In this document: one piece after another, positions 49,071 to 62,440 of the stretch
Position numbering within the stretch: the stretch's first letter is position 1
Layout: every line of letters starts with the position of its first letter
Source: Chryseobacterium arthrosphaerae
Lineage (GTDB): Bacteria > Bacteroidota > Bacteroidia > Flavobacteriales > Weeksellaceae
Reading direction: 5' to 3'
Assembly: GCF_001684965.1 (NCBI RefSeq)
Contig: NZ_MAYG01000001.1
Location: forward strand, 3,100,001 to 3,164,000
Length of the DNA stretch: 64,000 nt
Translations under genes and position numbers: made by a program
Notes under the pieces: generated by a model
What the model saw: the letters and a program-made list of their open reading frames with translations, nothing else
Told to the model about the DNA's origin: nothing
The model's database searches: none

Positions 49071-49388
49071 AAAACTTTTAAGAAAGGGTTAAAAAATATT
49101 TTGATTCATTAAAAAATATCAGAAAAGAACAAGAAGCAAGGTAAAAGTAAAGGTAAAAGTGTTTTTGGCGCTCACGAAGGACCTTAAGGCTCTTTAACTT
49201 TGTACTTGATTCTTTCTAACTGCAACACTGGTATATCTTTTCACAGCGTAATGCAAAATATTTTTATTACTTTTGAGGCTATATTACCCGTAATACCTAC
49301 AAACACAAAATCCCTTTCCTGCATTACACAGTGAAAGAGTTGATTTTCAGTATTTTATAAATTTACAAACAATTTTTAGCGCCAAAAG
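49071..49388 (-). ncRNA. Long structured 5' leader of rpoB (candidate regulatory RNA)
   Basis: About 318 nt lie between the predicted start of transcription near 49388 and the rpoB ATG. No ORF is evident. The first bases can pair with 49163-49172: ttttggcgct and agcgccaaaa (49378-49387) are a perfect 10-bp inverted repeat. An inner helix pairs 49320-49336 with 49239-49255 (about 17 bp, one U-U and one G-U). Within it is a small hairpin (49281-49295). Nested helices closed at the very 5' end resemble an autonomous RNA domain. After the domain, a pyrimidine-rich stretch includes the repeat gtaaaag/gtaaaag (plus strand, 49141-49160). No Rfam family is claimed. Confidence 0.45.
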
Positions 49389-49393
49389 AGGGG

Positions 49394-49425
49394 CAAAGAT
49401 ACAAAAAGTTATCCACAATAACAAA
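49394..49425 (-). promoter_or_regulatory. Consensus Bacteroidetes promoter for rpoBC
   Basis: On the minus strand: TTTG (49425-49422), 20 nt, then TATCTTTG (49401-49394). Both boxes and the spacing equal the Bacteroidetes housekeeping consensus. Transcription would begin near 49388. It shows rpoBC has an independent start downstream of the T9SS genes. Confidence 0.8.
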
Positions 49426-49449
49426 TAAATCATCTCATTTTTAAGTTGT

Positions 49450-49485
49450 TAAAATAAAAAAGGCTGCCCGAAAACGGACAGCCTT
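49450..49485 (-). terminator. Terminator of the second surface-protein pair
   Basis: On the minus strand, an 11-bp stem (49485-49475 with 49470-49460, one G-U) with tttt loop is followed by tttttattttaac. The same hairpin, with one base changed, ends the first pair at 53641-53665. Confidence 0.85.
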
Positions 49486-49880
49486 CACCTTATTATGAAG
49501 CTACAGGATTATTTGACAATAACCTTATAAGATTTCACAGTTGATTGGGTTTCAATCTTGATGATATAAACTCCGGCCGGCAATGAAGAAGTATCAATAC
49601 CTGTACGTGAAGAGAATTTATCAGATTTTACCACCTTGCCTTCTGCAGAGAATAAAGTATACACTCCTTCTTCAGCAGATGTAATCATAAGATTTTCTCC
49701 GGCCTTTACCGGGTTGGGATATATCTTCACATCAACGGCAGCCCCTGCAACGTCTGAAGCTGTCATTTTCGCTGCTGTACCGGATGCATTTTTCAATAAT
49801 GTGGCATATGGTGAAAGTGGAGAGCCCGGCGCTCCTCTTTTCACAAGATCCGTATCTACAACTGCCTGAATACCGTCTTT
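49462..49880. repeat. Near-identical 419-bp tract shared by the two large paralogues, copy 1
   Basis: This tract equals 53642-54060 at a constant offset of 4180. Bases 49561-49880 (320 nt) are identical, including third codon positions. The rest has only about six changes. It covers the terminator and the C-terminal sorting domain of the protein encoded at 49509-52097. Outside it the two genes diverge at once. Confidence 0.85.
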
Positions 49881-52097
49881 GTCCTTATCATCAATAGTAG
49901 AGATGAATCCGCCTCCCATAACATCAAGATTTTCTTTTCCTATTTGGTACAAATCAAAATCTACCCCGTTCGATCTTAAGTCAAGGAAATCCGGCTTATC
50001 ATCGTTGTTTGTATTTTTAATCGGATATTTCAGCACTCCGGAATCCGGGAATGTTTCAAGGATATCCGCAAGACCGTTTTTACCAACCGGAATATCACTA
50101 TCAATAATACCATTGCGGTCTTTATCAATCTGATTGATAACCGAAGCTGGAATACCGGATTCAAAAAGGTCTAAAATACCATCGTTATCAGAATCAAGGT
50201 CAAGGTAATTTGGAATTCCGTCTCCTAATACCGGTGTAAGCAGAATATCACCTTCAGTATCATCATCTTCAAATTTACCAGACTGGTTGAAATCTTCTAC
50301 AGAGTCAGGGATACCATCATTATCAGAATCAAGATCACAAGCATCTACAATACCATCTCCATCTGTATCCAGTACAGGTGACTTGTCATTTATCCCTGTA
50401 CAGTTTTCTGCGCAATCCGGAATACCGTTCCCGTTTGTATCGATATTGTCATCTCCGCCCGGGCAACGATCAAAGCAGTTCGGAACCCCATCATTATCAT
50501 CATCAATACTGGCAAATGCATTATAGATTCTATATTGCTGAGCTAAATTGACAGATACTAATGTGCTGAAAATAATCTTAATACGGTTAAAAGGTTTGGT
50601 CGCTTTACCACCTACATATATTTTTTTTGATCCGCTTGAAAGAAGCTCACCGGTCACAAGGCTTCCTGAAGTAAATGTATTTGTTTTCGTATTTCCATTG
50701 TAAAATTCGACAGTTACCCCATCAAGAACTCCCACTCCCAGAAGACCTGAAGTTTTTTCAATGACATATCCGGCAACGGTATTGGCAGGAAGTAACGGAT
50801 TAGACCTAACTGTTAAAACTGCAGGAGTAAGAAATGTACCCACCAATGGCAAAGTTGCAGTTGCAAAATTAGAAGGATTATCATCTACTACCCGGTCTGC
50901 ATTATCAATTCTGGCTCTTAACAAGCCCCAGCCAGCCAATGTCCACCTGTCGCCTCTAACAATATCTCCGGTAATTGATGAGCCACTTTTCTGAATTTTA
51001 TCATCACAGTCGCAATTCACCTGAGGTTCTTCAAAAGCGTAATATACCTTTAATGTTCCTATATTTACTCCAATGGTCTGAGTTACTCTAAGCCTTATCT
51101 CGTTAAAAGGTTTTGTTGTTACTATACTCACCTTCTGTTTTCCTGATCCATAGCTCACAAGCTTAATATTCAGCAAGGCACTTGAGTTGAATAAAGTCTG
51201 AGAATCCTGAAGCTGTCCAAACAAATAGGTTTCCACGGTCATATTTTTCAGAAGCTCAGCACTTATTAATTTCCCCTGATCTCCAGGTTCTATAGCAAAT
51301 CCAGCTCTGTTTCCCGCAGGATACACCTGGTTCTTATCCATTACCCCTATACTATAGGAAGAAAGTACTCCTACCGGAAATACTATTGACCCGAAAGAAT
51401 TTTTATCTCCATCTCCTATCTTTTCTCTATTTTGAACAAAAGAAAGTGGCGCAAGAAGAGTGTTAGCACTTGAAACGTTTCCATCTACACCATTACCTGC
51501 AATCATATCATCACAGATTTTATTGTTATCAGCAGGAATCTTAGCAGGATCAAATGCAAACGCATAATATATTCTTAGTGCGCTGAATACAGACAATACG
51601 TTGGTCTGATACAACCTTACTTCATCAAATTCTTTTGTAGTTTTTAAATGAAGAAAAGACCTGTTTTTAGTCCCACCCAATAAAGGAACTGAAAGCAAGG
51701 TATTACTGCTTGATGTTTCCTGACGAACACCTTTTTTATATGTTTCAATTCTCAATGAACTTAAAAGTTCTACCGTTAGAAGTCCTGATCCAAGGTCTAC
51801 GTTAAACCCGGCAATATATCCGGCAGGGTATGTTGTGTTTGTATTCTTTACTGATATTCCGTTTCCACTTACCACTGAAGCAAAATTGGATAGGCTGACA
51901 CTATTGTCCAGATCTGAATCAACAACGGCATTCATACTTCCATTAAAGCAGCCTAAACAAATTCCTGAGTTGTTTACAGGTTTAGCTTCTACCCCCATTC
52001 CACGGATAGGTTCATAGCCTTTTTGTGAAAATGCTTTTACAGATATCATGAAAACCATAAGTACCGTAATTAATTTCCCGAATAATTTTTTTGTCAT
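49509..52097 (-). CDS. Secreted protein with thrombospondin type 3 repeats and T9SS sorting domain (copy 2)
   Basis: 862 residues: signal peptide (about 1-25, ending KAFSQ), about 500 residues of three similar beta-rich modules (each with a YAFAFDPAK, YYAFEEP or YNAFAS ending), then a thrombospondin type 3 block from about 525 to 755 full of DxDxDGxxD calcium ligands (e.g. DDDNDGVPNCFDRC, DTDGDGIVDACDLDSDNDGIPD), and a T9SS sorting domain (about 785-862) with IYPNPVKAGENL. Secreted and attached at the surface. Its C-terminal 320 nt are identical to the paralogue at 53689-56274. Gap to the partner gene at 52124 is 26 bp. Confidence 0.92.
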   Translation of the reverse strand: MTKKLFGKLITVLMVFMISVKAFSQKGYEPIRGMGVEAKPVNNSGICLGCFNGSMNAVVDSDLDNSVSLSNFASVVSGNGISVKNTNTTYPAGYIAGFNVDLGSGLLTVELLSSLRIETYKKGVRQETSSSNTLLSVPLLGGTKNRSFLHLKTTKEFDEVRLYQTNVLSVFSALRIYYAFAFDPAKIPADNNKICDDMIAGNGVDGNVSSANTLLAPLSFVQNREKIGDGDKNSFGSIVFPVGVLSSYSIGVMDKNQVYPAGNRAGFAIEPGDQGKLISAELLKNMTVETYLFGQLQDSQTLFNSSALLNIKLVSYGSGKQKVSIVTTKPFNEIRLRVTQTIGVNIGTLKVYYAFEEPQVNCDCDDKIQKSGSSITGDIVRGDRWTLAGWGLLRARIDNADRVVDDNPSNFATATLPLVGTFLTPAVLTVRSNPLLPANTVAGYVIEKTSGLLGVGVLDGVTVEFYNGNTKTNTFTSGSLVTGELLSSGSKKIYVGGKATKPFNRIKIIFSTLVSVNLAQQYRIYNAFASIDDDNDGVPNCFDRCPGGDDNIDTNGNGIPDCAENCTGINDKSPVLDTDGDGIVDACDLDSDNDGIPDSVEDFNQSGKFEDDDTEGDILLTPVLGDGIPNYLDLDSDNDGILDLFESGIPASVINQIDKDRNGIIDSDIPVGKNGLADILETFPDSGVLKYPIKNTNNDDKPDFLDLRSNGVDFDLYQIGKENLDVMGGGFISTIDDKDKDGIQAVVDTDLVKRGAPGSPLSPYATLLKNASGTAAKMTASDVAGAAVDVKIYPNPVKAGENLMITSAEEGVYTLFSAEGKVVKSDKFSSRTGIDTSSLPAGVYIIKIETQSTVKSYKVIVK

Positions 52098-52123
52098 TTT
52101 TTTTATTTTAAGGTTTTTGTGTT

Positions 52124-53260
52124 TTAATTAGTAAAAGCTTTCCAACTGCTTCCATTACAGCCTTCATGTACTCTTAAATTACTATTGTAGCGGATTGCGC
52201 CTTCATCATTAACTGTACAGTTATTATCGGCAGGTTTTATTCCCTTTATCTGAATGGCCGCTCCTGATGTTGTATTTGCTGTGGGAACCATGTTGATCCC
52301 AACTATTGTATTTTCTCCGTTGCCCTTACTGTAAAAGATATGTTGCGCATTTGCATATACAATCTGGCCCGCACCAGCCGTTGCGGAGAATCCTAATCCC
52401 ATACTTTCTGTACCTGAAGCAGTATTACCTGATCCTACAGCAATAGTATTAGAGGATACAGTATTTCCGGTTCCGAATGCAATTCCACCATTATTTGTAT
52501 TGGAATTCCCAAAAGTAAGTCCTAAACCAGTTGGCGCCTGATTCAGATTTCCAAAGACCAGATTGGTAGCTCCGTTTACTGTATTTGAATTACCTATTAC
52601 CTTAGCGCCACTTGTTGCGGTGTTCCCGATTCCAATAGCTATGGCCGGGAAATTCGCTCCTTGTGCAGATACCGTATTGTTTCTTCCCAATGCCACATTG
52701 GAAGATATACTGTTGGATAGTACATTATTTGATCCCCAGGTAAATGATGCATATGGTCCTGATGATGTGTTTGAATTTCCACCTTGCAGTGTTCCGTTAA
52801 CGTCTAATATACCTTTTACATTACTTTGAGTAGCTAGAATCAGGTTTTGCCCGTCATTTGTTCCTAAATAATTTCCTTGGGTAATATCAGTTCCCAGGGC
52901 AGATGTGGTAGCTGTGGTACCTGCATTTCCTATTTTATCCCAGCCTGTGCTTAAGCCATTCCACTTTGTACCGTCAAAAAAATAGTATCCTGGAGATTGA
53001 ACGCCCGCAGTCTTACCTGAAGGAGCTGCTCCAGCTGCCGTAACATATACTATAGTTCCCGTTTGGGCAGCTGTATAATTTTTTACCTTCAGCTGATCTC
53101 CTGTAAGTCGTGGAGCAATAATTCCATCCAACTTGTCGGCATTTGTTGCTGATCCCACCACATCTAGAGTAGCCTGCGGTTTGGTTGTATTAATTCCAAT
53201 TTGGGCAGACACAGTGTACCCTGCAAATAAAATTGCAAAATTCAATAATCTTATTTTCAT
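52124..53260 (-). CDS. Exported beta-roll head-repeat protein (YadA-head-like), copy 2
   Basis: 378 residues. Signal peptide (about 1-20), GINTTKPQATLDVVG (a Bacteroidetes tail-fibre-like start), PGYYFFDGTKWNGL, then repeats of about 14 residues such as GNSNTVNGATNLVFGN, TFGNSNTNNGGIAFGTGNT and AVGSGNTASGTESMGLGF. These resemble the left-handed beta-roll of trimeric autotransporter heads. There is no T9SS domain or anchor, and the C-terminus has CNGSSWKAFTN. It ends 26 bp before the TSP3 gene. Probably a surface fibre subunit that pairs with it (inference). Confidence 0.8.
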   Translation of the reverse strand: MKIRLLNFAILFAGYTVSAQIGINTTKPQATLDVVGSATNADKLDGIIAPRLTGDQLKVKNYTAAQTGTIVYVTAAGAAPSGKTAGVQSPGYYFFDGTKWNGLSTGWDKIGNAGTTATTSALGTDITQGNYLGTNDGQNLILATQSNVKGILDVNGTLQGGNSNTSSGPYASFTWGSNNVLSNSISSNVALGRNNTVSAQGANFPAIAIGIGNTATSGAKVIGNSNTVNGATNLVFGNLNQAPTGLGLTFGNSNTNNGGIAFGTGNTVSSNTIAVGSGNTASGTESMGLGFSATAGAGQIVYANAQHIFYSKGNGENTIVGINMVPTANTTSGAAIQIKGIKPADNNCTVNDEGAIRYNSNLRVHEGCNGSSWKAFTN

Positions 53261-53688
53261 TCTATTAAAAATTTAAAGTGTTTTTTTACTTATATTAAAA
53301 ATTTGGTGGTAAAATAAAACTTACGACCCTATTTAATACATGAGATTAATTTTAATTATCGATAAAATCTCTTATGCAAATTTACCTTTTACAACCCGTC
53401 ATAAAAATGACAGATTTCAATCATTTTCCTCTTTTTATTATGATCAAAACAATAAAAAACAAAAACAAATAATTTTAAATAAAAACAATAAGGCTAAAAT
53501 TAAAAATCATTAAATAAACTTTTAATAAAGAAAATGATTCCTAATAATGCATTTATAAAGAATCATTTTTTTTCACAAGCAGAGGTGAATTAATGACAAC
53601 ATAAAAAAACATGCTTCTCTTTCAGCTATCAGACAAAAAAAAGCTGCCCGAAAACGGACAGCCTTCACCTTATTATGAAGCTATAAGA
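53261..53688. other. AT-rich spacer between the two duplicated gene pairs
   Basis: No gene seen. It holds the terminator of pair 1 (stem 53641-53665, minus), a perfect 10-bp inverted repeat aaaatgattc (53531-53540) and gaatcatttt (53560-53569) followed by a T run on the plus strand, and a TAnnTTTG match taaatttg on the minus strand (53384-53377) about 117 nt ahead of the head-repeat gene. No -33 box at standard distance. It probably carries the promoter of pair 2. Confidence 0.5.
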
Positions 53689-54060
53689 TTATTTCACAAT
53701 AACCTTATAAGATTTCACGGTTGATTGGGTTTCAATCTTAATGATATAAACTCCGGCCGGCAATGAAGAAGTATCAATACCTGTACGTGAAGAGAATTTA
53801 TCAGATTTTACCACCTTGCCTTCTGCAGAGAATAAAGTATACACTCCTTCTTCAGCAGATGTAATCATAAGATTTTCTCCGGCCTTTACCGGGTTGGGAT
53901 ATATCTTCACATCAACGGCAGCCCCTGCAACGTCTGAAGCTGTCATTTTCGCTGCTGTACCGGATGCATTTTTCAATAATGTGGCATATGGTGAAAGTGG
54001 AGAGCCCGGCGCTCCTCTTTTCACAAGATCCGTATCTACAACTGCCTGAATACCGTCTTT
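53642..54060. repeat. Near-identical 419-bp tract shared by the two large paralogues, copy 2
   Basis: Partner of 49462-49880. Just inside the coding region (54061 onward), identity drops sharply (atcagcatca here against gtccttatca there), giving a clean edge. Confidence 0.85.
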
Positions 54061-56274
54061 ATCAGCATCATTGATTGTAGAAATAAATCCGCCTCCCAAT
54101 GTATCAAGATTACCTTTTCCGATCTGATACAAGTCAAGATCCGATCCGTTGGAAGTAAGATCAAGGAAATCCGGTCTGTTATCTCCATCCGTATTCTTCA
54201 GAGCATATTTTAAAGTTCCGGAATCCGGATATGTTTCCAGTATATCTGCCAGGCCATTTTTACCTACAGCAACGCCTGCATCAATAACTCCGTTACGATC
54301 TGCATCAATCTGAGTGATCACTGATGTTGGGATACCCGATTCGAATAAATCCAGGATTCCGTCATTATCAGAATCAAGATCACGGTAATTTGGAATTCCG
54401 TCTCCCAATACCGGAGTAATCAGAATATCACCTTCCATATCATCATCTTCAAATTTACTGTTCATATCAAAGTCTTCCATTGAATCCGGAATACCGTCAT
54501 TATCAGAATCAAAATCACAGGCATCCACAATACCGTCACCATCTGTATCCAGCGTCGGAGATTTATCATTGATCACAGTACATCCTTCCGCACAGTCAGG
54601 AATACCGTTACCATTATTATCAATACTATCATCTCCGTTTGGACAGCGGTCGAAACAATTGGGAACTCCGTCATTATCATCATCTTTGCTGGCAAAAGCA
54701 TTGTAAATATTATATCCCTGGGATAAATTTACAGAAAGCAATGAACTGAACGTAATTTTAATACGGTTGAAAGGTTTGGTTGCCTTCCCTCCGATATAGA
54801 ATTTATTGGATCCGCTGGTAAAGAAGTTCCCTGTAATAAGACTTCCTGAAGTGAAGGTGTCCGTCAGCGTATTTCCGTTATAAAACTGAACTATAACTGC
54901 ATCCAGAACGCTTACTCCGATCAGACCGCCTGTTTTTTCCACGGTATATCCTGCGACAGTATTTTTAGGCAGCAAACTGTTGCTTCCCACTGTTAAGTTG
55001 GCAGAGAAAAGAAAAGTTCCTAACAATGGAAAAGTAAGCCTCGCATAATTGGAAGGATTATTATCTACTACCGCTCCGGCATTGGTAAGGCTCGGAGAAA
55101 GAAAGCCCAGTCCCGACTGCGTCCATCCGAATCCATTCACAATGTCGCCCTGAACTGAAGATCCACTGGTCTGAATTTTATCGTCACATTCACATCCCAC
55201 AGGTTCTTCGAATGCATAATATACGTTCAGTTTTCCTAAATTAAATCCTAATGTCTGGGTAATCTTTAGCCTGACTTCGTTAAAAGGTTTGGTTGTAGTC
55301 AACGTTACTTTCTGTCTTCCCGAGCCATAGCTAAGAATTTTAATATTGATAAGACCTCCGCCGTCTGATAATTGTCTTGAATCCTGAAGCTGCCCGAACA
55401 AATAGGTTTCTACAGTAATATTCTTAAGGAATTCAGCACTTAATAATTTCCCCTGATCATCAGGTTCAATCACAAATCCTGTTCTGTTGCCTGCAGGATA
55501 CACCTGGTTTTTATCTAAAACTCCCACGGAATAAGATCCCAATAACCCTACCGGAAGCACAATTGATCCATAAGAGTTCTTATCACCATCCCCTATTCTT
55601 TCTCTGTTCTGAACATATGAAAGCGGAGCAAGAAAGCTGCTGCTTCCGGACACATTCCCATCAACACCACTTCCGGCAATGATATCATCACAAATTCCAT
55701 TGTTATCTGTAGGGACTTTTGCAGGATCAAACGCAAATGCATAATACACATTCATCGAACTGAATACCGACAGCACATTGGTTTGATACAGCCTTACCTC
55801 ATTAAATTCTTTCGTAGTTTTAAAATGAAGGAATATTCTGTTTTTATTACCTCCAAATGCCGGTACAGACAATAAAGTACTACTGGTCGCAGATTCCTGC
55901 AGAACTCCGTTTTTATAGGTACTGATTCTCAGAGAGCTTAAAAGTTCTATGGTAATAAAGCTTGTCCCAAGATCTACATTAAATCCTGTAATATCTCCCG
56001 CCGGATAGGTTGTGTTAGTATTTTTCACAGAAATCCCGTTCCCGCTTAATAAAGAAGCGAAATTCCCCATACTCACTTTATTGTCAAGATCAGCATCCAC
56101 CACCGGGTTCATACTCCCGTTATAGCACGCCAGACAAATTCCTGAATTGCTGACAGGCTTTGCCTCTACCCCCATCCCACGGATAGGCTCATAGCCCTGC
56201 TGCCCAAATACTGTGACAGACATCACGAATGTCATAAGTACTGCAGCCAGTTTCCCGAATAATTTTTTAGTCAT
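53689..56274 (-). CDS. Secreted protein with thrombospondin type 3 repeats and T9SS sorting domain (copy 1)
   Basis: 861 residues, paralogue of the 862-residue protein and collinear with it: signal peptide (1-24, ending VFGQ), three beta modules, TSP3 repeats (DDDNDGVPNCFDRC, DTDGDGIVDACDFDSDNDGIPD) and the T9SS sorting domain. The body is roughly 70% similar by eye, yet the last about 105 residues are identical, including synonymous sites, as a result of recent gene conversion. TSP3 blocks bind calcium and give rigid stalks. Gap to the upstream partner is 31 bp. Confidence 0.92.
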   Translation of the reverse strand: MTKKLFGKLAAVLMTFVMSVTVFGQQGYEPIRGMGVEAKPVSNSGICLACYNGSMNPVVDADLDNKVSMGNFASLLSGNGISVKNTNTTYPAGDITGFNVDLGTSFITIELLSSLRISTYKNGVLQESATSSTLLSVPAFGGNKNRIFLHFKTTKEFNEVRLYQTNVLSVFSSMNVYYAFAFDPAKVPTDNNGICDDIIAGSGVDGNVSGSSSFLAPLSYVQNRERIGDGDKNSYGSIVLPVGLLGSYSVGVLDKNQVYPAGNRTGFVIEPDDQGKLLSAEFLKNITVETYLFGQLQDSRQLSDGGGLINIKILSYGSGRQKVTLTTTKPFNEVRLKITQTLGFNLGKLNVYYAFEEPVGCECDDKIQTSGSSVQGDIVNGFGWTQSGLGFLSPSLTNAGAVVDNNPSNYARLTFPLLGTFLFSANLTVGSNSLLPKNTVAGYTVEKTGGLIGVSVLDAVIVQFYNGNTLTDTFTSGSLITGNFFTSGSNKFYIGGKATKPFNRIKITFSSLLSVNLSQGYNIYNAFASKDDDNDGVPNCFDRCPNGDDSIDNNGNGIPDCAEGCTVINDKSPTLDTDGDGIVDACDFDSDNDGIPDSMEDFDMNSKFEDDDMEGDILITPVLGDGIPNYRDLDSDNDGILDLFESGIPTSVITQIDADRNGVIDAGVAVGKNGLADILETYPDSGTLKYALKNTDGDNRPDFLDLTSNGSDLDLYQIGKGNLDTLGGGFISTINDADKDGIQAVVDTDLVKRGAPGSPLSPYATLLKNASGTAAKMTASDVAGAAVDVKIYPNPVKAGENLMITSAEEGVYTLFSAEGKVVKSDKFSSRTGIDTSSLPAGVYIIKIETQSTVKSYKVIVK

Positions 56275-56305
56275 TTTTTATTGTTTTATAAAGTTTGTGT
56301 TTCTG

Positions 56306-57466
56306 TTAAAGGGTCTGCCATGCAAAATCAGCAGCATTGGGTCCTGTTTGCTTACATCCTACAAAACTTCCTGTTGTTCCTGATAATTCATATACGATTG
56401 TTCCTGCGTTGGCAGCATTACATGCAGGTCTTGTGCTGGCTTTGATCAGTATAGCTTTACTTACCTCCAGATCAGCAAAATTGGTTGAATTGGGAACCAT
56501 ATTGACCCCTACATCAGCAGTTGCCGCATTGTTTTCACTGAAGAATATATGAGTACCATTTGCATATACAGACTGCCCGGGATTTGCTGTTCCTGAAAAT
56601 CCAGCTACAAAAGCTTTACCTCCTACCGCAACGCTTGCTGATCCCACTGCAAAGCTGTTCGGGTCTACTGTATTTCCACCTCCTATGGCAATCCCTCCCT
56701 TGTTGATATGGGAGTTTCCTAATGTCAATCCTGTTACACCGGTAACTGTATTTGAGTTTCCAAATACAAAATGATTAGCTCCGGTCGCCGTATTGGAATT
56801 TCCAATGATTTTTGCTCCGTTCGCTGCTGAATTATTTGCCCCTATAGCTAAAGAGGGAAAGTTTGCATTATTGGCAGTAGCGGTATTATTTCTACCTATG
56901 GCAACATTGGAAGACACCGCATTGGTTGCATTATTTGACCCCCAGGAAAAAGCTGCATAAGCACCTGTAGCGTCATTAGAATTCCCACCTTGCAGGGTTC
57001 CATTTACATCCAATATTGCTTTTACATTCTTCTGGGTAGCCAGAACAAGGCTCTGACCATCAGTGGTTCCTAAATAATTTCCTTTGGAAATATCCGTTCC
57101 CAGTGTTGATGCTGTGGCGGTAGTCCCTGAATTTCCTATGGTATTCCAGCTTGTACTCAAACCATTCCATTTGGTTCCGTCAAAAAAATAATACCCAGGA
57201 GACAGCACCTCTGCAGTTTGACCTGAAGGTGCTGTTTCTGCTGCAGTGACAAATACTAATGCCCCTGTCTGAGCAGACGTATAGCTTTTTGCTTTCAGTT
57301 GAGCTCCCGTAAGCCTTGGAGCAATTATACCATCTAACTTACTTGCCGTTTCCGGCGTTCCTGTCACATCCAGAGTAGCCTGAGGCGATCCTGTATTAAT
57401 CCCAACCTGTGCTAACATTGGTAAACCTGCAGATAAAAGTGCAAGAGTGAATAATTTGTTTTTCAT
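56306..57466 (-). CDS. Exported beta-roll head-repeat protein (YadA-head-like), copy 1
   Basis: 386 residues from the ATG at 57466, which starts the signal peptide MKNKLFTLALLSAGLPMLAQ; the frame runs to 57649 but without coding features. VGINTGSPQATLDVTG and YFFDGTKWNGLSTSW match the paralogue at 52124-53260. Head-type repeats include NVAIGRNNTATANNANF, IGNSNTATGANHFVFGNSNT and GGIAIGGGNTVDPNSFAVG. It ends with a Cys-containing GCKQTGPNAADFAWQTL. First gene of pair 1 in the rplL-rpoB gap. Confidence 0.8.
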   Translation of the reverse strand: MKNKLFTLALLSAGLPMLAQVGINTGSPQATLDVTGTPETASKLDGIIAPRLTGAQLKAKSYTSAQTGALVFVTAAETAPSGQTAEVLSPGYYFFDGTKWNGLSTSWNTIGNSGTTATASTLGTDISKGNYLGTTDGQSLVLATQKNVKAILDVNGTLQGGNSNDATGAYAAFSWGSNNATNAVSSNVAIGRNNTATANNANFPSLAIGANNSAANGAKIIGNSNTATGANHFVFGNSNTVTGVTGLTLGNSHINKGGIAIGGGNTVDPNSFAVGSASVAVGGKAFVAGFSGTANPGQSVYANGTHIFFSENNAATADVGVNMVPNSTNFADLEVSKAILIKASTRPACNAANAGTIVYELSGTTGSFVGCKQTGPNAADFAWQTL

Positions 57467-58303
57467 TTCTAATGATATGTTTTTTTGTGTGTTGTATTGG
57501 AAGACAGTCCCCAAGTGATTCCATTCAAATGATAAATGAAATGAGCCAATGATTATGGCGAAGGACCGTAAGGTTTCAGAAAATACTGAATTATTTATAT
57601 GGAGAAGAAAGCTTATCGGGAATTTTAATAATAAGTTTAAAACCGTCAATAAGTTTAAAAGGGTTTATACAGAACTTTTTGGTCTCATCAAATGGGTTCA
57701 ATCCCTGGCTGTTCACCAAATGAAAAAAGCTCCATTTATACCAGACCGTCATACATTTGAATTTCTTAAGACAGGAAAGAAAAAAGTATTTACCGTCGAT
57801 AGAAGGATAACTATTTTTAATGATGTAATGATGAATTTTGTGGCTGCCCTTATGATCATTTCCATCCTGAGCAGTTCCGGAAGAAGTATTCCTACTTTTT
57901 ACGGGGTGTATAGAAACACCGGCGGGGCCAAAGTGCAAAGTCTTATTTACATCTGTGTAATACAGCAATTCTGCTTTATTTGCTGCCACAGATATAAGCT
58001 TTGCATTTAATTTTCCAATAGCCACCAGCAACAATATCAATGCAACTTTATGACCATAAGAAAGAAAGTAATTTCTATCCAATTCTGTTGTGTTTTTTCA
58101 ATACAAATATAACATTTTTCCAATCAAAACAATATTTTATTAAAAAAAATAACTTAAAATATTACAATACACATTAATTAATCAAAATATCACATTAAAA
58201 ATTACGAAATAATTAATAATAAAACAATATCAACTTATTCAGAATAATAATATTCAAATACAATTGCTTACAAAATCTGCTATTCAGAAGTATACAACAA
58301 AAA
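57467..58303. other. Gap between rplL and the first surface-protein pair, possible gene remnant
   Basis: 837 bp. A minus-strand open frame (58082-57591, TTG start, 163 codons) opens with a hydrophobic VALILLLVAIGKLNAKL segment and has tatatttg (58111-58104, minus) upstream, but its second half has no coding character and there is no ATG. A plus frame (57549-58010) is equally unconvincing. I read it as a non-coding region that may hold a decayed gene. 58090-58290 is very AT-rich. The 15-mer cgaaggaccgtaagg at 57559-57573 also occurs, with one change, at 49175-49189. Confidence 0.45.
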
Positions 58304-58325
58304 AGCCCGGGCATTTGCCCGGGCT
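58298..58325 (-). terminator. Terminator of the rplKAJL operon
   Basis: On the minus strand, agcccgggc (58325-58317) pairs with gcccgggct (58312-58304), followed by tttttg. It is 24 nt after the rplL stop. Its presence shows that rplKAJL transcription does not depend on reaching rpoB. Confidence 0.9.
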
Positions 58326-58349
58326 CTTATATTTATAATAAAACTGAAA

Positions 58350-58718
58350 TTATTTCAATTCTACTTCAGCACCAGCTTCTTCTAATTGCTTCTTAAGAGC
58401 TTCAGCTTCGTCTTTAGAAACACCTTGCTTGATTGCAGCAGGAGCTCCGTCTACGATATCTTTAGCTTCTTTAAGACCAGCACCAGTTAAATCTTTTACT
58501 AATTTAACGATAGCTAATTTAGAAGCACCTGCAGACTTAAGAATTACGTCGAATTCAGTCTTTTCTTCAGCAGCATCACCTGCACCACCTGCAGCAACAA
58601 CTACAGCAGCAGCAGCTGGCTCAATTCCGTACTCATCCTTAAGGATAGCAGCTAATTCGTTTACGTCTTTTACAGTTAGGTTTACTAGCGTTTCAGCTAA
58701 ATTTTTTAAATCTGACAT
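58350..58718 (-). CDS. rplL: 50S ribosomal protein L7/L12
   Basis: 122 residues: N-terminal dimerisation helices (1-32), flexible Ala/Gly-rich hinge ([15 protein letters not shown]) and the globular C-terminal domain with the factor-binding patch [21 protein letters not shown]. It forms the ribosomal stalk on L10 that recruits translation factors. Gap to rplJ is 46 bp. In most bacteria rpoB follows; here the operon terminates. Confidence 0.99.
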
Positions 58719-60814: not shown

Positions 60815-62440
60815 TTACTTTTTAAGGAACTTCAGTCCTTCTTCCTGATCTTTTATTTTTAAAATATACATTCCTTTCACAAGATCTTTTACATCTATCA
60901 TTCCCTGTTTCACGGATCCGGTTTTTATCAGCTGGCCTGCTGCATTATAGATACCAACATTCTGATCTTTTACTCCATCTATATGAATAAAGTCTGCTGC
61001 AGGGTTAGGATATATTCTGATTTCTGATTTTTTACCTGAAATTTCGTGTGTTGACATGGATCCGGAAGGAAAAATTAAATTCTGTGCATAGGCAACCGGC
61101 TGAATATCGCCACTTTTCTGCTCATGAAAGACAACCACAGCCTGCCCGTTAACAGGCCTTAGTACGCTCGGATAAGATTTTGAGGCTGCATACGTAGCAA
61201 CAGGAAGGTAATGTTCCGGCCATGTAAATTCCCCGTCAGTATTAAGCAAAACAGCATTCAGTGATACATTAAGACCGGTACCTTCTTTCTTCTGTACTAC
61301 AAAATAAGGACTGTTGTTCACCAGCTGCAGGTTCCCGTAATGAAACATTGATGTATTATCAACCGGAAAAACCTGTTTGGCATTATCTGTTAAAAGCCTT
61401 GCTCCTGTAGCTTTATCAAACTTTTGTACGAATTCTCCGTTTTGTCCCTGCGATGAAGAGCTATAGTTTGCTATTGCCCATACATAAGGAGATCCCGGAG
61501 CAAATGCCATTTTCATATCTTTTTCAAAATAAGTCTGATTGGTATCAAAGTCTACGCCTACATTCCCCCACGGAAGGTTACTATTGGCATCAATTCTCTG
61601 AATATAGGCATCAAATCTCATATTTTCTCCACTGCTGAATCCGTAATACACGACGTTACCATCCACAGCACCTGAATATTTGGCATTGTAAGCGGTAGAC
61701 TTGGTGGTAATCTGCTTAGGGGCATCCCATGCTATAGTTCCGGTTTCCAGGTTAAGTTTCTGAGCAAACAGATAGCTTGTGGTTCCGAAAGAGAGCTGCT
61801 TATGGAAGATTATTTCACATTCATTGTTAGAAAGTTCGAAAAGATTGCCAGGAACTGTATTTTTAGTGGTATCATCAGACTTGATCTGAGTTGGAGTAGC
61901 CCATACCGCCTGCCCGGCAGCATCGTACTTCTGTACTTTGGTATATTTCTGGCTGGATGGAAAATAAGCCACGAGAATACCTCCGGCAGACAGTGGAAGG
62001 ATGGTTGGCAGATAAGCTTCTCCTAAGCTGATCCCGTTTGGCCATTCTGATGTGCCTTGTGGAGTAATCTTAAATATGTATCCGGGATTTCCGGCCCCGG
62101 TACCCGTCACGCCTATATAGAAATTGTTTGAAGAATCAACGGCAGTACTTTCCATTACGGTATAGGTACTCATGGGAATCTGATCAGAAATTTTAATTCC
62201 GTCTGAACCTAACAGTTTATTTCCCTGCTGATCCAGCATCTGTACCCATAATTCAAAGTTGACAGGAGCCGGTACGCTTTTCCAGTATCCTATATAGGTC
62301 TTTCCGTCACTTGTAGTGGCAGCAAAAGAAGAACTCGCCTGTTTTGTTACGGCAAGGTTCTGGTCAAGAACAGGATTCCATTGTGCTTTCCCTGTAAACC
62401 AAAAAAGCAGGGTTCCGAAAAGGATAAGTATTTTTTTCAT
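60815..62440 (-). CDS. T9SS-sorted secreted protein with propeller-like repeats
   Basis: 541 residues. Signal peptide (about 1-19, ending GKAQ), a body of repeated beta-strands with quasi-periodic YKI/LNLETG and W-containing turns, and a T9SS type A sorting domain (about 465-541) with IRIYPNPAADFIHIDG and LVKGMYILKI. No catalytic motif can be seen. Upstream gap of 143 bp to the TPR regulator, so likely its own transcript. It may be secreted or remain on the surface. The 3' end is followed by a weak hairpin near 60750-60775. Confidence 0.88.
   Translation of the reverse strand: MKKILILFGTLLFWFTGKAQWNPVLDQNLAVTKQASSSFAATTSDGKTYIGYWKSVPAPVNFELWVQMLDQQGNKLLGSDGIKISDQIPMSTYTVMESTAVDSSNNFYIGVTGTGAGNPGYIFKITPQGTSEWPNGISLGEAYLPTILPLSAGGILVAYFPSSQKYTKVQKYDAAGQAVWATPTQIKSDDTTKNTVPGNLFELSNNECEIIFHKQLSFGTTSYLFAQKLNLETGTIAWDAPKQITTKSTAYNAKYSGAVDGNVVYYGFSSGENMRFDAYIQRIDANSNLPWGNVGVDFDTNQTYFEKDMKMAFAPGSPYVWAIANYSSSSQGQNGEFVQKFDKATGARLLTDNAKQVFPVDNTSMFHYGNLQLVNNSPYFVVQKKEGTGLNVSLNAVLLNTDGEFTWPEHYLPVATYAASKSYPSVLRPVNGQAVVVFHEQKSGDIQPVAYAQNLIFPSGSMSTHEISGKKSEIRIYPNPAADFIHIDGVKDQNVGIYNAAGQLIKTGSVKQGMIDVKDLVKGMYILKIKDQEEGLKFLKK

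Follow-up and report, generated by a model that had tools for sequence, protein, structure and literature searches.

The rplL-rpoB junction was analysed in a window of 64,000 nt from Chryseobacterium arthrosphaerae (GCF_001684965.1, NZ_MAYG01000001.1, positions 3,100,001 to 3,164,000), where the two genes stand 9,279 bp apart and the gap between them (49071-58349) carries genes for surface-type proteins. This gap is a lineage-wide cargo site and not a private insertion. The cargo did not break an intact operon; the split between rplL and rpoB probably preceded the present cargo, and rpoB is headed by a conserved leader which, as judged from alignments, is a candidate new cis-regulatory RNA. 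Taken as a whole, an explanation that combines a split junction, a leader belonging to rpoBC, exchange of gene cassettes, gene conversion and control through the leader has, in our estimate, a probability of about 0.7. How cells match the synthesis of the RNA polymerase core to that of ribosomes is a basic question, and the textbook arrangement ties ribosomal-protein and RNA polymerase genes in one operon; much of the Weeksellaceae has untied them. The leader RNA is a more surprising object than the cargo insert beside it.

The split junction and its signals

The list of open reading frames (ORFs) gives, on the minus strand, the order rplL, C, A2, B2, A1, B1 and rpoB, with rplK, rplA and rplJ (named by position and size) standing together with rplL ahead of the gap. 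The original prediction for this DNA was right that rplL and rpoB are split by two tandem A-B pairs on the operon strand, as well as in giving rplKAJL its own terminator and rpoBC its own promoter, both of which were located. Beyond it, a fifth ORF (C) was found, together with one terminator behind each A-B unit. The two A-B pairs are direct repeats with a spacing of 4,177-4,206 bp, and A2 probably starts at the ATG at 57466 rather than at the TTG with which the longest ORF begins. The features are as follows.

58350-58718, minus strand: rplL (L7/L12), from a PF00542 match in its own genome and the ORF
58299-58326, minus strand: intrinsic terminator of rplL (GAGCCCGGGC..GCCCGGGC, T run)
58104-58111, minus strand: TATATTTG, a box before ORF C found by pattern match only, which we take to be of the Bacteroidota -7-like motif type
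57591-58082, minus strand: ORF C, 163 amino acids (aa), TTG start, hydrophobic N-terminus
56306-57466, minus strand: A2, head-repeat surface protein of the resident cassette, 89.6% nucleotide identity to genome G063
53689-56274, minus strand: B2, 861 aa, 90-93% nucleotide identity to G063
53636-53665, minus strand: terminator behind B2
53377-53384, minus strand: TAAATTTG, a weak -7-like box 5' of A1 (pattern match only)
52124-53260, minus strand: A1, head-repeat surface protein of the second cassette, with weak fold matches
49509-52097, minus strand: B1, 862 aa
49509-49817, minus strand: 3' end of B1, a putative gene-conversion tract with its counterpart in B2 at about 53689-53997
49456-49485, minus strand: terminator behind B1
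49394-49425, minus strand: rpoB promoter, TTTG-N20-TATCTTTG
49071-49393, minus strand: rpoB leader of about 320 nt, from cross-genus alignment, its start placed by the promoter
49379-49387, minus strand: 5' arm of P1, UUUUGGCGC, partner of 49163-49171
49312-49340, minus strand: P2 hairpin region (CUCUUUC..GAAAGGG), less certain
49221-49255, minus strand: P3 core hairpin, UGCA-yU-ACGCyG-UGAAAAGAUAUAC-CrGyGU-UGCA, from RNAalifold and pair counts (model R1 match at 49211-49270)
49163-49171, minus strand: 3' arm of P1, GCGCCAAAA
49086-49122, minus strand: conserved block CUGAUAUUUUU..CAAAAUAUUUUUUAACCC ahead of the start codon
45249-49070, minus strand: rpoB, from a PF10385 match in its own genome and the ORF

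The window was compared with a same-genus set of 128 genomes (rplL found in 126, rpoB in 125) and with a family sample of 120 genomes from 33 genera. The gap could be counted in 116 of the 127 genus genomes with rplL or rpoB, the other 11 having the two genes on different contigs or strands or lacking one of them; three of the 116 were left out of further examination since the stretch exceeded 20 kb. Together with 40 of the 81 family junctions that fit within 20 kb, the 113 remaining genus loci gave a junction set of 153 loci.

The gaps of the genus measured 469-1,841 bp in 31 genomes, 4.9-5.7 kb in 54 and other sizes between 3.2 and 50 kb in 31. A reading of the insertion as private to this genome does not survive the gap of at least 3.2 kb, most often with one A-B pair, in 85 of the 116 genomes. 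Likewise, relatives free of the insert had been expected to have rpoB within about 150 bp of rplL, and this fails in the genus, where the smallest gap is 469 bp; within the family sample, gaps of about 93-162 bp were confined to genera g17, g19, g21, g28 and g29. It had also been conceded that the insert would be ancestral and unremarkable if relatives carried unrelated genes here or had the two genes far apart. The latter holds for some genera, such as g3, g5, g25 and most of g23, in which the two genes lie at a distance from each other or on separate contigs, whereas most relatives carry related genes at this site. A single A-B pair, with or without C, was seen by eye in about 52 of the 113 loci (two with a broken B frame), and the full tandem arrangement in the window genome, G034 and G109. 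Near relatives of the window genome have remnants or C alone (G127, G083).

Next, the terminator and promoter signals were scored in 150 of the 153 loci; the remaining three (G147, G214 and G154), in which no rpoB ATG was located, were viewed separately. The genus terminator score was reached in 112 of 113 loci, compared with 1 of 113 shuffled sequences. Of the 113 genus loci, 110 had the promoter pattern between -385 and -330; none of the 113 shuffled sequences had it there, and 6/113 had it anywhere. Both patterns were found together in 111 of 113 genus loci, including all 25 with a gap below 1 kb; G008, one of the two failures, has by eye a plain hairpin with an interrupted T tract. A sigma-70 scan gave no promoter excess (35 versus 31.6 expected), and Bacteroidota promoters are of a type other than sigma-70.

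These counts bear on the view that the insertion must have kept both halves of an intact operon expressed: both signals are already in place at every genus site below 1 kb. A recent private insertion was rejected on the genus gap sizes together with the terminator and promoter at empty sites. That the insert recently entered an intact rplL-rpoB operon, both halves happening to stay expressed, would fit its large size (9,279 bp) and the gaps below 1.9 kb in 31 of 116 genus genomes. Nevertheless, the 25 short sites with both signals argue against it, as does the cassette carried by most relatives, including the resident cassette in G063, the closest locus compared, and we regard such an event as extremely improbable.

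The compact junctions of other genera (g11, g17, g19, g20, g21, g28, g29) lack the promoter pattern in 10 of 10 cases, and by eye all 10 (L170-L177, L182, L183) have a TTTAGACC..GGTCTAA-type hairpin after rplL. Since the hairpin also follows rplL in compact junctions, it is the promoter, not the hairpin, that marks the split. A hairpin resembling an attenuator may thus already have been present before the split, where it perhaps served the unsplit operon for processing or attenuation. Some observations weigh against a single and clean split that came before the cargo. The compact-junction hairpin passes the terminator score in 3 of 10 cases (g20, g21), and three g10 loci and G133 (g7) have a terminator with only a -7-like box in place of the full promoter pattern. 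Moreover, g11 is without the promoter and yet branches inside the split clade on a tree of rpoB, from which it follows that the split arose more than once or that g11 reverted. This tree holds 148 of the 153 loci; G147, G214 and G154 were out for want of a located rpoB ATG, and G063 and G118 because they are frameshifted. The assemblies of the latter two (L069 and L110) show broken frames in B and rpoB, perhaps from sequencing errors.

A candidate leader RNA found with rpoB

The blocks before rpoB are conserved across genera in the alignment. Of the 153 junction loci, 146 have a 35-nt core, among them those of g11 and g20; it is missing in seven, which belong to g17, g19, g21, g28 and g29. A covariance model of P3, named R1 and describing a 60-nt hairpin element, matched 86 of the 120 family genomes in 25 of the 33 genera, with one strong match each. 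G192 has an extra weak match (G192:C1:1237522-1237589, 33.2 bits), placed some 670 bases upstream of its strong one. All 83 testable matches were found 1,708-1,884 bp before the PF10385 domain of rpoB on the same strand, the other three of the 86 having no rpoB found on their contig, and the element lies about 200 nt before the rpoB start codon. For 19 of the 83, rpoB was not found near rplL, for most perhaps only through a contig break; in G186, G151, G129, G131 and G200, rplL and rpoB are far apart on one contig, and the element is with rpoB. The leader element goes with rpoB, not with rplL.

Outside the family, R1 found one genome in a sample of the order (296 genomes, 48 family genomes matched; E 0.0084) and one in a sample of the phylum (296 genomes, 7 family genomes matched; E 0.0146), and both were taken as chance. 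An element fixed to rpoB, with two marginal matches outside the family, offers a concrete handle on rpoBC regulation outside the ribosomal operon. No Rfam model, Lacto-rpoB included, matched the leader strand at E <= 1; at that threshold the leader region gave a single match, to a fungal snoRNA on the opposite strand (E 0.068), and membership in a known Rfam leader family was rejected. Neither a Weeksellaceae rpoB leader nor cargo at this junction was found in the available portions of the literature searched (including PMC2864571, PMC7247131, PMC8046335 and PMC10931766).

RNAalifold placed the P3 hairpin on the core without guidance. P1 has 84.7% of cells paired, with changes on both sides in six of its eight pairs; by eye it is missing from a number of sequences, including those of g2, g7, g10, g11, g18, g20 and g22. 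For P1 and P3 together, 46 sequences gave 91.8% paired cells, compared with 86.7% in shuffles and at most 46.7% with slid partners, and 45 double-change cells, compared with 12.9 in shuffles (0 of 500 as high) and 6-10 in the slid controls. At one P3 pair, 143 of 144 loci have U-A, C-G or G-C, and the tree requires at least seven changes; all five independent tree contrasts at this pair were concordant (p 0.0625). For P2, 98% of 141 distinct stretches had a stem of 8 or more, compared with 50% of shuffles, and 112 of the 141 had it in its expected place; in the window a different stem scored best.

An additional pairing concerns the start of rpoB. In 143 of 146 loci the 5' flank of P3, AAAAAUAUUUUG, can form 10-14 bp (G-U allowed) with the pre-start block, and this AU helix is part of the minimum-energy fold of the window leader; alternatively, the pre-start block can form a local hairpin. 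Several results count against a structured leader with such a switch: in 11 of 46 sequences the two bases of the outer P3 pair do not match, the whole leader folds no more stably than shuffled sequences (z -1.25, 12 of 100 shuffles as good), the AU-helix pairing is missing in G144 and G170, and its two blocks are nearly invariant palindromes with a hint of compensation in one genome, G182. Given this near invariance, the switch pairing is only a suggestion.

The conserved element might instead act as a DNA site or encode a leader peptide, rather than forming an RNA structure. An open frame (LHYAVKRYT..VAVRK) does run through it, and by eye several of the changes fall at third codon positions. 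The variation is, however, concentrated in paired positions, with both sides changing together, and the affected codons by eye change amino acid freely (A, T, S, V, P), so we consider this alternative unlikely.

If the leader is an RNA, it probably lets rpoBC be controlled on its own. P3 would then be the binding or sensing part, and the AU helix, in exchange with the local hairpin, would open or close rpoB translation. According to the available part of PMC10931766, the Bacteroidota do not use Shine-Dalgarno pairing, and within the classical operon rpoBC is controlled separately and autogenously. In such a phylum, two pairings close to the start codon that exclude each other would be in keeping with a translational switch, and the separate autogenous control of rpoBC makes RNA polymerase a natural first candidate as ligand. 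A more far-reaching possibility, which we put forward only tentatively, is that P1, P3 and the AU-helix switch form a new RNA class that gives the beta and beta' subunits autonomous control, took rpoBC off the rplL transcript, thereby created the cargo site, and travels with rpoB.

Surface-protein cassettes and their turnover

The cargo was originally described as surface-protein-like, and this is borne out by a type A sorting domain of the type IX secretion system (T9SS), TIGR04183, in B1 and B2 (E values 1.5e-15 and 1.7e-15; 56.9 and 56.7 bits, against a cut-off of 23). TSP_3 matches in both proteins were weak and below cut-off. B2 consists of three beta domains, a TSP3-like stretch and the sorting domain, and the N-terminus of B1 and B2 is a hydrophobic stretch in the sequence and a helix in the B2 model, possibly a Sec signal peptide. 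The structure model of B was poor, with a mean predicted local distance difference test (pLDDT) score of 58.8. Its tail matches the sorting domain in 8glk_D (TMt 0.74); the rest of B found generic beta folds, reelin fragments best of all, at low template modelling (TM) scores, which were 0.08-0.19 of the query among the matches listed at E <= 0.001. From its domains, B would be a surface protein exported by the T9SS.

A1 and A2 matched no Pfam or NCBIfam family, and no Pfam domain, membrane anchors included, at E <= 1. Some relatives of A carry the UniRef name 'Trimeric autotransporter adhesin YadA-like', and relatives have PF26696 in precomputed annotation. A1 has the repeat look of YadA-like heads such as UspA1, AtaA and BoaA, and Foldseek matched its model (pLDDT 69) weakly to these heads (3wp8 at probability 0.95 and 3ntn_B at 0.97, E >= 0.13), whereas its top fold matches were left-handed-helix acetyltransferases (3jqy, E 0.010). 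As no anchor domain was found and the acetyltransferases ranked first, membership of the trimeric autotransporters is not claimed for A. A may be a secreted, beta-roll-like head protein that probably works with B at the surface. ORF C had no Pfam or NCBIfam match; C-like ORFs were found 36 times in the genus loci, the window copy included, and evolve fast. By eye, the start and end of C are kept across species, with large variation between them.

B is bound closely to this site. It was present at E <= 1e-60 in 68 of the 128 genus genomes. Of the 77 B matches, fragments included, 76 share the strand of rplL or rpoB and lie no more than 20 kb away; only a second copy in G084 does not. Among 51 named full-length B loci, both rplL and rpoB were found in 44 and at least one of them in 50; R1 matched 47 of the 51, plus the window, and the remaining four have no rpoB in the stretch examined. 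All are Chryseobacterium records but one, from Epilithonimonas sp. JDS, where the cassette likewise occupies the rplL-rpoB junction. Among the 120 genomes of the family sample, B occurred in 8, all of the same genus as the window genome. On the rpoB tree, the presence of intact B must have changed 18 times or more. Small-large-small cassettes often fill the same gap in other genera and in other Chryseobacterium loci, and the occupants scanned include L-type-lectin and cadherin/Ig-type proteins.

Three records speak against a strict binding of B to the junction: the copy elsewhere in G084, a copy in G228 on a contig other than that of rplL or rpoB, and a distant full-length relative, 45% identical, in Foetidibacter luteolus. 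As to other occupants, the gap of G105 (L101:1299-4427), a genome of the genus set, encodes an anti-phage DS8-like protein scoring 788.2 bits, just under the cut-off of 790. A Tex-like RNA-binding gene lies in the g32 gap (L159 and L160, the latter by similarity to the L159 protein). G060 and G087 (L067, L087) have gaps of 16-17 kb with a large gene block in opposite orientation, including a B-like protein.

The near-exclusive place of B (76 of 77) and the operon strand of the cargo in most loci could mean that the position is adaptive, with high or growth-linked expression, through read-through or gene dosage, keeping surface genes here; the cargo had indeed been placed in a highly expressed neighbourhood. 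That description lacks support. One would expect no read-through from rplL, since each unit lies between terminators, and these separate rplL, each unit and rpoB from one another. Furthermore, the cassette is often lost and other cargo (Tex-like and anti-phage-like genes) occurs here too, which leaves an adaptive position rather unlikely.

One site with many kinds of cargo and repeated gain and loss could also be the attachment site of a mobile element with its own recombinase. This we hold to be very unlikely: no recombinase was found in the five window-gap ORFs or in 11 scanned occupant proteins of other loci, and the 99% repeat in the window is the 3' end of B, that is, homology and not a short att site. 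The recombinase-bearing element was rejected as a candidate on the five window-gap ORFs.

The two cassettes of the window differ in their closest relatives. A2-B2 is the resident copy, with 89.6-92.6% DNA identity in five segments to G063, the closest locus for both cassette and leader among the loci compared; the upstream stretch with C has only 71.9%. A1 and the body of B1, in turn, are 70-80% identical to their best match among the loci compared, and the nearest known relatives of the B1 body reach 81% (P0053, P0065). The bodies of B1 and B2 are 75.6% identical, while their last 107 residues are identical and the last 309 bases are 99% identical in DNA. A fresh duplication of A-B was rejected, given bodies of only 75.6% identity and the two B copies also found in Chryseobacterium sp. 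G0186.

In pairs from different genomes whose bodies are about as similar, tail identity averages 64.3%, with a maximum of 80.2% (n=6, from 120 random pairs). The two B copies of G0186 have tails 91.6% and bodies 75.7% identical, and these tails are 77.4% and 71.7% identical to those of the window. The pattern suggests that B1 and B2 are kept alike at their 3' ends by gene conversion, a process which, to judge by tandem cassettes whose tails are identical, may be ongoing in T9SS cargo genes. Against its generality, five other within-genome B pairs have tails of 66-82%, near or slightly above background, and tail conversion is clear in two genomes only.

Proposed course of events and related systems

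We propose that the split came before the present cargo. Comparison shows that, across much of the Weeksellaceae, rplKAJL is closed by a terminator and rpoBC has a promoter and leader of its own. With these in place, the space between would be dispensable. It would then have served as a place for cargo across the lineage, where surface-protein cassettes are gained, lost, duplicated and exchanged; the occupancy is observed, and the turnover would proceed through homologous recombination. In the window genome, a divergent A1-B1 would have joined the resident C-A2-B2. The junction shows operon fission opening a site for surface-gene exchange.

Two systems invite comparison. The Lacto-rpoB RNA, which we take to lie upstream of rpoB, belongs to the Lactobacillales and not to the Weeksellaceae, and its model had no match on the window leader strand at E <= 1. 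In the available part of PMC2864571 (Weinberg et al. 2010), Lacto-rpoB (Rfam RF01709) is likewise a conserved candidate cis-regulatory RNA named for rpoB. The second system, in the Lactobacillaceae, has nrdHEF inserted between rplL and rsmC in the rpoBC operon (PMC8046335). As in the window, genes were inserted after rplL, and neighbours were later disconnected in some species; the genes and the phylum are different, and the available part of PMC8046335 describes no repeated exchange of cargo and no rpoB leader RNA.

Two observations concern the neighbourhood. An ORF of 541 aa (60815-62440, minus strand), directly upstream of the rplK-like ORF, has a T9SS-type tail match to B (E 2.4e-4); surface-type genes may therefore flank rplKAJL on either side. 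A short way beyond the edge of the window, a further ORF (G000:C1:3165514-3165612) has an A-type N-terminus, with 58% identity over about 34 residues.

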